DNA of 64,000 nucleotides, taken from positions 1,364,001 through 1,428,000 of the forward strand of contig NZ_PDIZ01000001.1 in the NCBI RefSeq assembly GCF_002563635.1. Direction: 5' to 3'. This stretch comes from Bacillus sp. es.036. GTDB lineage: Bacteria > Bacillota > Bacilli > Bacillales > Guptibacillaceae. Under the pieces are notes generated by a model that saw only the letters and a list, made by a program, of their open reading frames with translations, had not been told where the DNA came from and did not search any database. The position numbers were made by a program, and so were the translations under genes. Shown here one piece after another: positions 1,761-32,849 of this stretch. Every line of letters begins with the position of its first letter. Within the stretch, counting starts at the first letter, position 1.

Positions 1761-1830
1761 ATGTTTAATTAATTGAAAGCAAGGGTAAATTTTTGTGTTA
1801 ATACATTATAGAAATACTGGGGAGGAACAT

Positions 1831-3117
1831 ATGGTACATCAATCGATTCAGTTAAGCGAATTACGAGAACAATTGCTTCATTCCTTTGAGGCAATACGCG
1901 CAATGACAAATACATTAGTGGAAACGCTTGAGACGGAGGATTTTACCATCCAATCAATTCCCGATGTAAGTCCTCCCAAATGGCATATGGCCCACACGAC
2001 TTGGTTTTTTGAGACGTTTATTTTAAAACAGTATAAAGAAAATTATGAGTCTTTTCATAAAGAATTTGACTATTTATTTAACTCGTATTATGAAAGTGTT
2101 GGAAGTTACTTTCCGCGTCATTCAAGGGGATTATTAAGTAGACCAAGTATAGATAAAGTAAGAAGCTATCGTTCGGATATCAATGAAGAAATAGTTAACT
2201 TAATTCAACAACTCGATGAAGGACATCTTCATCAAGTTGCAGATCTCGTTGAAATTGGACTAAATCATGAACAGCAACACCAAGAACTTTTAATGACAGA
2301 TATTAAATATAACTTCTCCATTAATCCGTTGTACCCTGTATACCGTCCACTTGATGGCGAACCTACAGCAAAAGCGACACCGTTAGAATGGGTGTCATTC
2401 GAGGGTGGACTTATTGAAACGGGTATGGATGAAGATGACGGCTTTTCTTTTGACAATGAGCGACCAGTACATAAGGTATGGCTTGAACCATTTAAGTTAG
2501 CGACAAGAACTGTGACGAACGGAGAATACATGGAATTTATCAATGCTGGAGGCTATGAACAGGCTGCCTACTGGCTGTCTGATGGTTGGGCAACTGTGAA
2601 GAAAGAAAATTGGAAAGCGCCATTGCATTGGATCGAAAAAGATGGTGAGTGGTATGCGTTTACACTTCATGGACTAGTGCCGATTAATAAAGAAGAGCCT
2701 GTTACCCACGTTAGCTATTACGAAGCCGAAGCCTATGCAAGTTTTGTAGGGAAGCGCCTACCTTCAGAATCAGAATGGGAAGTTGCAGTGAGGGATCAGC
2801 CGATCGCTGGTAATTTTGTAGAGGATGGTCACTATCATCCGGTTGCATCAGTGAAAGAAGAAGAAGGTAACATAAAAAAAGCTTATGGAGATGTATGGGA
2901 ATGGACGAAAAGTCCTTATATGCCATATCCAGGTAATAAACCTCTTGAGGGTGCATTAGGTGAATATAATGCCAAATTCATGAGTAGCCAAATGATTTTA
3001 CGAGGAGGATCATGCGTTACTTCGCAAACACATATCCGTCCGACATATCGTAATTTCTTTGGTCCTGAGAAACGCTGGCAATTTACAGGCATTCGTCTTG
3101 CAGAGGACGCACAATGA
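1831..3117 (+). CDS. egtB: Ergothioneine biosynthesis sulfoxide synthase EgtB
   Basis: EgtB is a non-haem iron enzyme that joins hercynine to cysteine or gamma-glutamylcysteine using O2, giving the sulfoxide precursor of ergothioneine. I take the ATG at 1831, 4 nt after GGGGAGG, rather than the in-frame GTG at 1795; this gives 428 residues, the usual length. An N-terminal DinB-like domain carries the iron ligands: His55 in WHMAHTTW and His146/His150 in NHEQQH. A C-terminal FGE-sulfatase fold follows, with RGGS and IRPTYRN near the end. The stop overlaps the egtD start (ATGA). No egtA or egtC is nearby, which favours free cysteine as sulfur donor (inference). Confidence 0.93.
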   Translation: MVHQSIQLSELREQLLHSFEAIRAMTNTLVETLETEDFTIQSIPDVSPPKWHMAHTTWFFETFILKQYKENYESFHKEFDYLFNSYYESVGSYFPRHSRGLLSRPSIDKVRSYRSDINEEIVNLIQQLDEGHLHQVADLVEIGLNHEQQHQELLMTDIKYNFSINPLYPVYRPLDGEPTAKATPLEWVSFEGGLIETGMDEDDGFSFDNERPVHKVWLEPFKLATRTVTNGEYMEFINAGGYEQAAYWLSDGWATVKKENWKAPLHWIEKDGEWYAFTLHGLVPINKEEPVTHVSYYEAEAYASFVGKRLPSESEWEVAVRDQPIAGNFVEDGHYHPVASVKEEEGNIKKAYGDVWEWTKSPYMPYPGNKPLEGALGEYNAKFMSSQMILRGGSCVTSQTHIRPTYRNFFGPEKRWQFTGIRLAEDAQ

Positions 3118-4085
3118 TAAAAACCTCGGATCGTATTCAGTTAGTTGATTTCTTGCAGGAGCAATCTGATCGTTTTCAAGAAGTGATTGGGGGCTTGACA
3201 GCTCCTGAGAAAAGACTCGAACCTAAATTCTTGTATGATCAATATGGATCAGAGCTATTTGAGGAAATTACGCAGCTTGAAGAATACTATCCAACTCGTA
3301 CGGAATTGGCGATCATGGAAGAATGTTTGGATGAGATTTTGTCTTTTATTGGTAAAGACTCTCGGATCATCGAATTTGGTAGTGGTGCAAGTCGTAAAAT
3401 AAGACTTCTACTAGCATCGGGTATGATTAATGAGTATTGTCCAATTGATATTTCAAAATCGTTTTTAAAAGAGTCGATCAAACAGCTCTCATCTGATTAT
3501 ACAGACATTAAAATTACTGGAATTGTAGCTGATTATACAACGCACCTTAAACTTCCTGATCATTTATTGGATGCTTCAAGAAAAAAAACCGTCTTTTTTC
3601 CGGGTTCAACAATCGGTAATTTTGATAAAGATGAAGCTTTAAAATTTCTAACTAGAATTTCAAGTGTGTTGTCAAGCCAAGATGGATTACTAATTGGCGT
3701 GGACTTAAAAAAATCACCGGCTCGTCTGCATCAAGCATACAATGACGAAAGTGGCGTTACGGCTCAGTTTAATTTAAATATTCTTCGTCATTTAAATAGA
3801 GAGTACCGGGCACAATTTAATCTAGAACAGTTTGAGCACTACGCGTATTATAATTCTAGCCTTGGAAGAATTGAGATGCATCTAGTTAGTTTGCTAGATC
3901 AACATGTGGGAATAGGCGATCACACCATCCAATTTAGGGAACATGAGTCCATCCATACAGAAAACTCGTATAAGTACGGTATTAAAGAATTCCAACAGTT
4001 AGCGGAAAATGCAGGTTTTCTACCAATGAAAACCTGGACTGATAAGGAGAGGCTTTTTAGCTTGCATTATTTTAGTGTTAAGTAA
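3114..4085 (+). CDS. egtD: L-histidine N(alpha)-methyltransferase EgtD
   Basis: EgtD is a SAM-dependent enzyme that trimethylates the histidine alpha-amino group to give hercynine, the substrate of EgtB. The protein has 323 residues, typical of the family. Seen are the N-terminal ELFEEITQLEEYYPTRTE segment, the SAM-binding loop IIEFGSGASRKI at about residue 83, and the FFPGSTIGNF block. The start overlaps the egtB stop by 4 nt, so the two are translationally coupled and form a minimal two-gene ergothioneine operon. Such pairs are well known in Actinobacteria, Proteobacteria and fungi, and uncommon in Bacillota. Confidence 0.94.
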   Translation: MIKTSDRIQLVDFLQEQSDRFQEVIGGLTAPEKRLEPKFLYDQYGSELFEEITQLEEYYPTRTELAIMEECLDEILSFIGKDSRIIEFGSGASRKIRLLLASGMINEYCPIDISKSFLKESIKQLSSDYTDIKITGIVADYTTHLKLPDHLLDASRKKTVFFPGSTIGNFDKDEALKFLTRISSVLSSQDGLLIGVDLKKSPARLHQAYNDESGVTAQFNLNILRHLNREYRAQFNLEQFEHYAYYNSSLGRIEMHLVSLLDQHVGIGDHTIQFREHESIHTENSYKYGIKEFQQLAENAGFLPMKTWTDKERLFSLHYFSVK

Positions 4086-4516: not shown

Positions 4517-4740
4517 GTAAGGACATATTCAACTGAGCCGTCGTTAAGTGAATGAACGTAAGCAATTGAGTAGCCGATGCTAAGATAAATCGATAGGGTT
4601 TCTGTACATGAAGGATGGAGGGGCTCAGTTGGTGCGTGAAGGCTTTTGTAGAGTGCAGTTGTTTGATTGGAAAATGGTGAACAGTGGAGAAGTACGACAT
4701 GTTTTCCACTCCAAGCAGTACCGATTTGATGTCGTCTCAT
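4510..4740 (-). CDS. Hypothetical small protein
   Basis: A 76-residue protein on the minus strand. I do not recognise the family. The case for a real gene is an excellent RBS, AAAGGAGGA, 6 nt before the ATG at 4740, and a strong terminator at its end. The sequence is not strongly hydrophobic, has two Cys, and ends SLNDGSVEYVLTK, which looks like the last strands of a small beta fold. It is convergent with the thioredoxin-like gene and lies on the opposite strand from the c-di-GMP riboswitch unit. Function is unknown. Confidence 0.7.
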   Translation of the reverse strand: MRRHQIGTAWSGKHVVLLHCSPFSNQTTALYKSLHAPTEPLHPSCTETLSIYLSIGYSIAYVHSLNDGSVEYVLTK

Positions 4741-4895
4741 GACACTCCTCCTTTACCGTATTTTTAGTTTTCTTCAATCACCTGCAACAATGAGAAGCTA
4801 CTCGGTTTAGACGGAAAGATTCACTTTGGTGATAGGAGTATGATATGATTCTTGCAAGTTGAATGATATGAATACGACATTATTTTAAAAATATT

Positions 4896-4924
4896 TTGAA
4901 TTTTTTCTGCGTAGCTGGTATATT
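4896..4924 (+). promoter_or_regulatory. Sigma-A-type promoter of the riboswitch/SinI-like unit
   Basis: TTGAAT at 4896-4901, a 17-bp spacer and TATATT at 4919-4924. Transcription would start near 4931, giving a leader of about 205 nt that contains the c-di-GMP aptamer. Confidence 0.65.
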
Positions 4925-5019
4925 AGTAACATATACCGGCAAACTTCTCTTAAAAATTTGCGGATTCTTTAAAAACATGTAACATTTCTAGGAAAATAGT
5001 CGGTGCATGTCATTTCTTA

Positions 5020-5130
5020 ATTCTCCAGATAAGGGCAAACCATTCTAAAGAATGGGACGCAAAGACACAGGTCTAATGTTGGGTCACCAACGATGACGGC
5101 TGGTCCTCCTGGAAACCCGATAAGGAGGAG
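5020..5130 (+). promoter_or_regulatory. Cyclic di-GMP-I (GEMM-I) riboswitch with an RBS-sequestering hairpin
   Basis: The segment 5033-5064 matches the conserved core of the GEMM-I class almost base for base: GGGCAAACC, a hairpin with an AAAG-type loop, then GGGACGCAAAG, followed by ACACAGGTCT. A second helix is formed by GTTGG/CCAAC (5078-5091) closed by GTC/GAC. CCAG at 5025-5028 can close P1 with CTGG at 5100-5103. Just downstream, TCCTCCT (5104-5110) is perfectly complementary to AGGAGGA (5123-5129), the ribosome binding site of the next gene, so the platform is probably translational. Whether ligand turns the gene on or off is not resolved. Confidence 0.9.
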
Positions 5131-5136
5131 AAAAGA

Positions 5137-5289
5137 ATGACCATGGCAGAGATTAAGCCTAAGAAAGTACTTGATCAAGAATGGGTTATTCTAATGAGGG
5201 CTGCCCGGGAGCTTGGATTACAAAAGGAAGAGGTAAGGACATTCCTAAGACAAGATAAAAAACCAACATCCACGAATGTACATAAATGA
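5137..5289 (+). CDS. SinI-like antirepressor, 50 residues
   Basis: The reading frame starts at ATG 5137, 6 nt after AAGGAGGAG, and ends at TGA 5287-5289. It encodes LDQEWVILMRAARELGL and KEEVRTFL, matching the SinI/SinR dimerisation helix pair (in B. subtilis SinI, LDQEWVELMVEA). SinI-family proteins bind the biofilm repressor SinR and remove it from DNA. There is no DNA-binding helix-turn-helix, so this is an antirepressor and not a SinR paralogue. No sinR is in the window. The leader is a c-di-GMP-I riboswitch, which would connect the second messenger directly to the matrix/motility switch. Confidence 0.87.
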   Translation: MTMAEIKPKKVLDQEWVILMRAARELGLQKEEVRTFLRQDKKPTSTNVHK

Positions 5290-5290
5290 T

Positions 5291-5316
5291 AAGCGACCAG
5301 TAAGGTCGTTTTTTTC
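5291..5316 (+). terminator. Rho-independent terminator after the SinI-like gene
   Basis: The stem CGACC/GGTCG has a 5-nt loop and seven T, immediately after the stop codon. Confidence 0.85.
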
Positions 5317-5327
5317 TGGCTTAATCC

Positions 5328-5357
5328 TTGACTTTAGGTGAACATTTTTTGTATCAT
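5328..5357 (+). promoter_or_regulatory. Promoter of the glycine T-box / glyQS unit
   Basis: TTGACT at 5328-5333, an 18-bp spacer and TATCAT at 5352-5357, just upstream of the T-box leader. Confidence 0.6.
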
Positions 5358-5364
5358 ATGTCAT

Positions 5365-5590
5365 ATCAATCTCATACATAACCATACTAACTATGAAGGA
5401 CAAATAGTAATCAGATAAACCTCAATGAAGCGATTCGGGGATGGTGCGAGCCCGAATAAGGTCTGATGAAACGGCGGTCTGGAGTTTACGTTCTGAAAGT
5501 GGATGCATGATATGCATCAACTAGGGTGGAACCGCGGGTGCATAAGCTCTCGTCCCTGGACATTTATTGTCCATGGAGCGAGAGCTTTTT
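5365..5590 (+). promoter_or_regulatory. Glycine T-box leader with terminator
   Basis: A T-box leader that senses uncharged tRNA-Gly and allows read-through into glyQS. The T-box sequence AGGGTGGAACCGCG is at 5523-5536. Stem I spans about 5400-5490, with the AGCGA motif at the start of its upper part. A GGC triplet at 5473-5475 is the likely glycine specifier (position inferred from the layout of the B. subtilis glyQS leader). The terminator stem pairs AGCTCTCG with CGAGAGCT around the GGACA/TGTCC inner stem (about 5545-5586) and ends in TTTTT. Confidence 0.93.
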
Positions 5591-32690: not shown

Positions 32691-32715
32691 AGGTAAGTAC
32701 TAACTAAATCAATTT

Positions 32716-32789
32716 TTACTCGTATATTCTCAGAAATATGGTCTGAGCGTTTCTACCCGGTTCCCGTTAAAGTACTGGACTACGAGTTG
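32716..32789 (+). promoter_or_regulatory. Guanine-class purine riboswitch aptamer
   Basis: The purine aptamer is complete. P1 is ACTCGTA/TACGAGT (32718-32724 with 32781-32787). P2 is formed by TCTCAGA and TCTGAGC, the J2/3 segment has TTTCTACC, and the P3 stem-loop runs from CCGG to CTGG. The key pyrimidine before P1 is C (GGACTACGAG), the guanine form; adenine riboswitches have U there. Two terminator-like hairpins follow, so control is probably premature termination when guanine or hypoxanthine is abundant. Confidence 0.95.
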
Positions 32790-32797
32790 AAGTATGC

Positions 32798-32849
32798 TGA
32801 TAACTGTCTTTGTTTTTATAATGAAAAATAAGATGACAGCTATTTTTTA
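32798..32849 (+). terminator. First terminator-like hairpin of the guanine riboswitch
   Basis: CTGTC (32804-32808) pairs with GACAG (32835-32839), with TTTTT/AAAAA pairing inside, and is followed by TATTTTTTAT. It lies 10 nt after the aptamer and is the better-placed expression platform. Confidence 0.6.

Follow-up and report, generated by a model that had tools for sequence, protein, structure and literature searches.

Textbooks present SinI/SinR as a circuit that decides on biofilm formation and c-di-GMP as a biofilm signal; to our knowledge, the two have been treated as largely separate in Bacillus subtilis. A 64,000-nucleotide stretch of the Bacillus sp. es.036 genome, here called the window, raises the question of whether they may meet in a single RNA. 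On its forward strand, it carries a compact unit made up of a promoter-like site, a c-di-GMP-I (GEMM-I) aptamer, a 50-codon SinI-like open reading frame (ORF) and a terminator-like site (Table 1). A first-pass annotation had proposed this arrangement. The analysis confirms it, with the qualification that the promoter scan alone stays at chance level (three sites found, against a mean of 2.3 in shuffled sequences).

Architecture of the riboswitch-sinI unit

Scoring with the Rfam covariance model upholds the aptamer call (Table 1). GGGC, CGCAAA and the CC before P1 are all present in the window aptamer, and with them the ligand-contact nucleotides, which we take to be G20, A47 and C92 in the Vc2 numbering of c-di-GMP-I aptamers, the mapping of these numbers being likewise our assumption. 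In c-di-GMP-I riboswitches, a GNRA tetraloop on P2 docks into P3. The P2 loop of the window aptamer (5046-5049) reads UAAA rather than GNRA, a form shared by several relatives, many others having GAAA, and it might weaken this docking.

Table 1. Elements of the stand-alone riboswitch-sinI unit, in window positions
Feature	Position	Strand	Basis
Promoter-like site, TTGAAT-17 nt-TATATT, TG before the -10	4896..4924	+	Consensus scan; aligned in 14 orthologues
5' arm; UCCAG (5024-5028) is the 5' strand of P1	5019..5028	+	Predicted folds
c-di-GMP-I (GEMM-I) aptamer	5024..5112	+	Rfam RF01051, 66.9 bits, gathering score 35, E 6.6e-11
3' arm; CUGGA (5109-5113) is the 3' strand of P1	5104..5113	+	Folds, alignment
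Shine-Dalgarno region AAGGAGGAGA	5122..5131	+	Sequence; aligned in orthologues
Stand-alone SinI-like antirepressor gene, 50 codons, ATG start	5137..5289	+	Pfam PF08671
Intrinsic terminator-like stem AAGCGACC..GGTCGTTT, T residues after	5291..5311	+	Terminator scan; compensatory stem changes in several orthologues

The Shine-Dalgarno sequence AAGGAGG (5122-5128) lies 8 nt ahead of the ATG. A scan of 4740-5420 detects two terminator-like sites where 0.4 would be expected, and none between the aptamer and the SinI ORF. With no such site there, control of the window copy should act on translation, and a transcription-terminating platform was rejected for the same reason.

The 4.34-Mb genome, assembled in three contigs, contains four c-di-GMP-I aptamers, of which two stand directly upstream of a SinI ORF. 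Chance co-occurrence of aptamer and SinI was rejected on this count and on the recurrence of the pair in relatives. The other two aptamers lie at about 3048-3137 of locus L011, preceding an ORF that by eye resembles a small membrane protein, and at about 2568-2654 of locus L012, preceding the gene of a protein of about 299 aa that looks secreted and has no Pfam match. Elsewhere in the window, a purine riboswitch aptamer occupies 32700-32802 (78.2 bits), and adjacent ORFs at 1795-4085 resemble, by eye, egtB and egtD of ergothioneine synthesis.

The stand-alone SinI-like peptide and the sin cluster

The SinI-like identity first assigned to the 50-codon ORF is borne out by Pfam, where the peptide reaches 39.8 bits against PF08671 (cut-off 31.4, E 3.8e-10). 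A profile of the peptide and 14 relatives matches B. subtilis SinI (PDB 1b0n_B, E 6.2e-13), and the AlphaFold model predicts a small two-helix protein of 50 aa, with helices at 14-25 and 30-41 and without a DNA-binding domain (mean pLDDT 73.8, pTM 0.44). At 37.7 bits, it falls under the curated cut-off of 80 for the NCBIfam SinI equivalog NF046031 and is therefore not filed under it.

Among the five SinI-domain matches of the genome are those of a sin cluster (locus L010), which consists of an aptamer, sinI1 (39 codons), sinR1, a divergent sinI2 (40 codons) and a second SinR-like gene; no aptamer over the Rfam cut-off is found at sinI2. The SinI-like gene of the first-pass annotation is a real family member, but an extra, stand-alone one; the sinIR cluster has its own riboswitch-sinI pair. 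The stand-alone peptide and the sinI1 product are 41 % identical.

The genome also encodes a SinR homologue, as the proposed circuit needs: SinR1 matches its B. subtilis counterpart over residues 1-107 of 111 (E 5.7e-40). SinR is 90-96 % identical in Bacillus sp. RAR_GA_16, Alkalihalobacillus macyae, Pseudalkalibacillus hwajinpoensis, Alkalihalobacillus sp. CinArs1 and Alkalihalobacillus algicola, which makes Pseudalkalibacillus, or a near neighbour of it, the probable genus. Both SinR-like proteins score under the cut-off of the NCBIfam SlrR equivalog (88.3 and 82.9 against 250 bits). A tapA-sipW-tasA-like matrix operon is present as well, with SipW at 259.9 bits (curated cut-off 190), a TasA/camelysin protein over the PF12389 cut-off (156.5 against 450 bits for the NCBIfam TasA equivalog) and a TapA-like gene that matches weakly (19 against 80 bits). 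Two sites resemble what we take to be the SinR operator, namely GTTCTTTATAAAGAA upstream of the TapA-like gene (locus L245, 2428-2442) and the inverted pair AAAGAAC..GTTCTTT between sinI2 and the second SinR-like gene (L010, 4052-4070). Enzymes of c-di-GMP metabolism are represented by eight GGDEF and four EAL domain matches.

Conservation within the genus

The stand-alone unit was aligned across 14 genus genomes, the window's own and 13 others. Aptamer, ORF and the anti-Shine-Dalgarno arm UCUCC align in all of them, the arm being identical throughout, and the SinI frame is open in every one, in agreement with the earlier expectation that the peptide is kept in relatives. The -10 region of the promoter-like site is changed in two genomes (G003, G010) and the terminator is apparently lost in one (G006, locus L116); several orthologues carry compensatory changes in the terminator stem (GCGACC/GGTCG, GCGATC/GATCG, GCTATC/GATAGC).

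Codon differences in the six nearest orthologues sum to 41 synonymous against 23 non-synonymous, mostly at third positions, in comparisons that are not independent. Five more distant orthologues give synonymous/non-synonymous counts of 8/8, 14/17, 13/13, 11/13 and 10/18. Codons were compared without gaps, and for this reason the counts of L083 and L132 (genomes G010 and G003; 2/39 and 4/38) are not informative. The arrangement of the three genes is constant, with sinI1 and the stand-alone sinI both preceded by an aptamer and sinI2 lacking one over the Rfam cut-off in all 14 genomes.

Breadth across Bacillales

The pairing extends well beyond the genus. A survey of 61 Bacillales genomes, from 48 genera and 47 family labels, found c-di-GMP-I aptamers in 54 genomes and a SinI domain (E <= 0.001) in 43. 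Scanning covered 92 SinI loci, and two that proved to be SinR (L144, L162) were dropped. The resulting 90 short SinI ORFs are those with an open frame of at most 106 aa among the matches listed, plus L163, which has a longer frame, and the copies of the window genome; they represent 41 of the 43 genomes in which a SinI domain was detected. Aptamers recur ahead of short SinI ORFs: among the matches listed, 53 of the 90 have one (RF01051, or RF03167 from the same clan) over the Rfam cut-off directly upstream on the same strand, with 15-37 nt from aptamer end to chosen start codon, start codons being chosen by rule rather than observed and one being set by hand. The aptamer seen at L120 is that of the adjacent L150 ORF and enters the count a single time. 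No significant aptamer accompanies the other 37 ORFs among the matches listed. Riboswitch-SinI copies occur in at least 35 of the 61 genomes, at least 22 genera and at least 21 family labels; six of the 41 genomes represented have no riboswitch copy among the matches listed.

A second sample of 80 named SinR loci, partly overlapping the first, was searched with a model built from SinI-linked aptamers. It gave 55 matches at E up to 1, of which 53, in 52 of the 80 loci, are directly followed by a SinI ORF; the match in L184 (E 0.63) is not significant, and 27 loci have no significant match. Because of the way the model was built, its matches in 20 of the 80 loci were checked against Rfam, and all 21 exceeded the cut-off, L187 included. 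The pair is seen in Fictibacillus, Sutcliffiella, Metabacillus, Oceanobacillus, Gracilibacillus and Neobacillus, and also in Cytobacillus, Heyndrickxia, Weizmannia, Salibacterium and Alteribacter, although not in every member of each genus. Among the named SinR loci, those of Fictibacillus enclensis, solisalsi and fluitans lack it, as do both Halobacillus loci examined. Collectively, the two samples suggest that c-di-GMP often feeds straight into the biofilm switch of Bacillus relatives.

Two observations concern individual loci. In Halalkalibacterium ligniniphilum (L187, 2180-2345, - strand), a c-di-GMP-I aptamer of 49.6 bits runs into a SinI frame with neither a usual start nor a Shine-Dalgarno region, which looks like a decayed unit. 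Peribacillus frigoritolerans F-D2 (L188) and Metabacillus idriensis (L202) have a near-identical sinI leader and the same SinI, and one of them may be misnamed.

Motifs upstream of sinI genes were counted as well. The search covered 250 nt upstream of the aptamer for riboswitch copies, or of the start codon for the others, with ORFs among the matches listed. TGTCGAA, which we take to be the Spo0A-box motif, precedes six of 53 riboswitch copies, where shuffles lead one to expect 1.2, and two of 37 others, where they lead one to expect 1.0; with TTTGTCGA, the figures are five of 53 (0.6 expected) and one of 37 (0.2 expected). GTTCTYT, presumably the SinR box, stands upstream of 20 of the 37 aptamer-free genes (3.2 expected) versus eight of the 53 riboswitch copies (4.1 expected), and 14 of those 20 are the sinI2 genes of the genus, all 14 being included, which are orthologues and not independent. 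This pattern suggests that sinI2 may be under SinR feedback and that riboswitch copies may take the c-di-GMP input, a division that serves as a lead only because the 14 sinI2 genes are orthologues.

Predicted switch mechanism

Folding points to two leader designs with a common outcome. In the genus design, the Shine-Dalgarno region has a possible partner in the 5' arm of P1 (UCUCCAG or UCCUCCAG); the window leader is predicted to form this pairing in its ligand-free fold, and UCCUCCU (5104-5110) in its 3' arm offers a second complement of that region. The other design is present in 45 of 106 leaders, drawn from two samples that overlap in part. Its near-invariant hairpin CCUGAAAUAC..GUAUUUUAGGAGG covers the Shine-Dalgarno region and has a 5' arm in common with the 3' strand of P1. 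Pairing is perfect in 30 distinct hairpins, partly by construction, because the search pattern allows only purine/wobble changes at several hairpin positions. The shared arm means that P1 and sequestration exclude each other, and since the two compete in both designs, an ON switch is predicted.

With P1 forced, 48 of 53 leaders gain more than 0.1 in predicted Shine-Dalgarno accessibility (mean rising from 0.24 to 0.62), three lose more than 0.1 (L094, L095, L099) and two hardly change (L098, L147); P1 was located by a simple rule and is, in our judgement, doubtful in about ten of the 53. Shuffle and swap controls were run on 35 of these leaders, five of the 14 genus genomes being kept. The real leaders gain 0.40 on average. 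Shuffling flanks and linker gives 0.19 (exceeded by 28 of the 35 leaders, p 7e-6), swapping the downstream parts 0.31 (exceeded by 26, p 0.02) and shuffling the linker 0.32 (exceeded by 22, p 0.035).

The window leader behaves less distinctly. Without ligand, its P1 arms together are predicted to hold 0.70 to 0.80 of Shine-Dalgarno pairing across four transcript lengths, and 0.02 to 0.10 of that pairing remains with P1 forced, yet accessibility rises from 0.17-0.30 to only 0.45-0.56. Its gain of 0.23 is not above the 0.30 of its flank-and-linker shuffles, the 0.29 of its swaps or the 0.42 of its linker shuffles, so the direction of its own switch is one that we infer. These models argue well for a translational ON direction in the group and less strongly for the window copy.

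A probable c-di-GMP-responsive SinI unit and its alternatives

The analysis supports the first-pass interpretation of a c-di-GMP riboswitch on a SinI-like antirepressor. The window probably holds a one-gene c-di-GMP-responsive unit under translational ON control, whose SinI would free the matrix operon from SinR. Aptamer, gene, their linkage and conservation, and the presence of SinR and the matrix operon are computed features of the genome. From them, we infer direct c-di-GMP regulation of sinI and action on SinR. The promoter would transcribe a leader with the c-di-GMP-I aptamer, followed by the SinI-like antirepressor microprotein and the terminator. When ligand is absent, the P1 arms would occupy the sinI Shine-Dalgarno region by base pairing, which would keep translation low. 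High c-di-GMP, if the window copy binds it, would stabilise P1, free the Shine-Dalgarno region and allow SinI to be made. SinI would then bind SinR or an SlrR-like paralogue, derepress the tapA-sipW-tasA operon and so affect the biofilm.

The opposite sign, by which c-di-GMP would lower SinI and high c-di-GMP would favour SinR, appears improbable. Bacillus does have c-di-GMP riboswitches of both signs, one 'off' and one 'on' (PMC7793685), and the three leaders that lose accessibility, together with a window copy that does not exceed its controls, fit such a switch. It sits poorly with the 48 of 53 leaders that respond the other way, with the arm-sharing hairpin of 45 of 106 leaders, in which P1 and sequestration are mutually exclusive, and with the lack of a terminator-like site between the window aptamer and the ORF. 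That the true target might be the glycyl-tRNA synthetase gene beginning at about 5600 on the same strand, with the small ORF merely a leader ORF, deserves almost no credence and was rejected: the terminator-like site ends the unit before it, and the gene has its own T-box leader (5384-5560) and promoter-like site (5328-5357, from a scan not above chance). The ORF is moreover of the SinI family, and the aptamer-SinI pair recurs next to sinR in the same genome. The T-box leader scores 84.1 bits (E 4.9e-19), just under the Rfam gathering score of 93, and is for that reason absent from the default Rfam scan.

It is unlikely, although a reading to be kept in mind, that the stand-alone SinI is a differently specialised or decaying duplicate, acting for example on an SlrR-like regulator only, with a riboswitch that does not set SinR activity. 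Its limited identity to the sinI1 product, the second SinR-like protein, the damaged unit of H. ligniniphilum and the many non-synonymous codon differences in distant orthologues would all suit this account. The frame is nevertheless open in all 14 genus genomes, and synonymous codon changes outnumber non-synonymous ones in the six nearest orthologues, in those non-independent comparisons.

A c-di-GMP-responsive, matrix-promoting sinI unit thus stays our preferred reading of the window. Extended to the order, we lean towards the view that in much of Bacillales c-di-GMP enters SinI/SinR directly via translational ON riboswitches on sinI, with B. subtilis as an exception. Genomes with several sinI genes would divide their inputs, c-di-GMP acting on riboswitch copies in the cluster and on stand-alone ones and SinR feedback on the aptamer-free copy, and two anti-Shine-Dalgarno designs would follow the same logic. 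A riboswitch on sinI would unite the SinI/SinR circuit and c-di-GMP in one RNA, and its target would be a microprotein that serves as a master antirepressor, instead of an enzyme, a transporter or an adhesin. If the ON direction is true, it would offer a direct, testable c-di-GMP route to matrix production in many Bacillales.

Relation to known systems

A close relation is the sinI-sinR system of B. subtilis, which likewise combines a SinI family antirepressor, SinR and the tapA-sipW-tasA operon. It differs in its input: B. subtilis sinI is activated by Spo0A, and the B. subtilis genome used as a control has no reported c-di-GMP-I match. SlrA of B. subtilis resembles the window gene, by description, as a stand-alone SinI paralogue away from sinIR, but it is controlled by YwcC and is not known to have a riboswitch.

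Published precedent is limited in the open-licence literature searched. A search for GEMM and SinI together returned unrelated titles, and titles and abstract openings among the matches listed from the open-licence literature pointed to no study of a sinI riboswitch. The accessible part of one paper names both SinR and riboswitches without linking them (PMC2614493). In B. thuringiensis overexpressing a c-di-GMP synthase, a microarray showed sinI up-regulated, and the accessible part of that report names no sinI riboswitch (PMC7793685). The same source describes an 'on' c-di-GMP riboswitch of cbpA, which resembles the present case in its ligand class and in the ON direction predicted here, and differs in that its target is a collagen adhesion protein, not a regulator (PMC7793685).

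The closest precedent comes from RNA-seq of Bacillus methanolicus MGA3, where Table 4 lists '(c-di-GMP)-sinI', a putative c-di-GMP riboswitch upstream of sinI (PMC4342826). With this precedent, the one found in print among the papers searched, the pairing is not new, and the first-pass annotation, which was aware of no described case, needs correcting on this point. As far as the accessible part of that paper goes, the entry concerns a single gene of a single species, named in one table and one sentence, with no fold, sign or species comparison (PMC4342826). The present work adds the stand-alone copy, the wide occurrence of the pair and the two anti-Shine-Dalgarno designs with a shared arm, none of them found among the matches listed from the open-licence literature searched. 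Compared with B. methanolicus, the window genome carries a stand-alone extra sinI besides the cluster copy.
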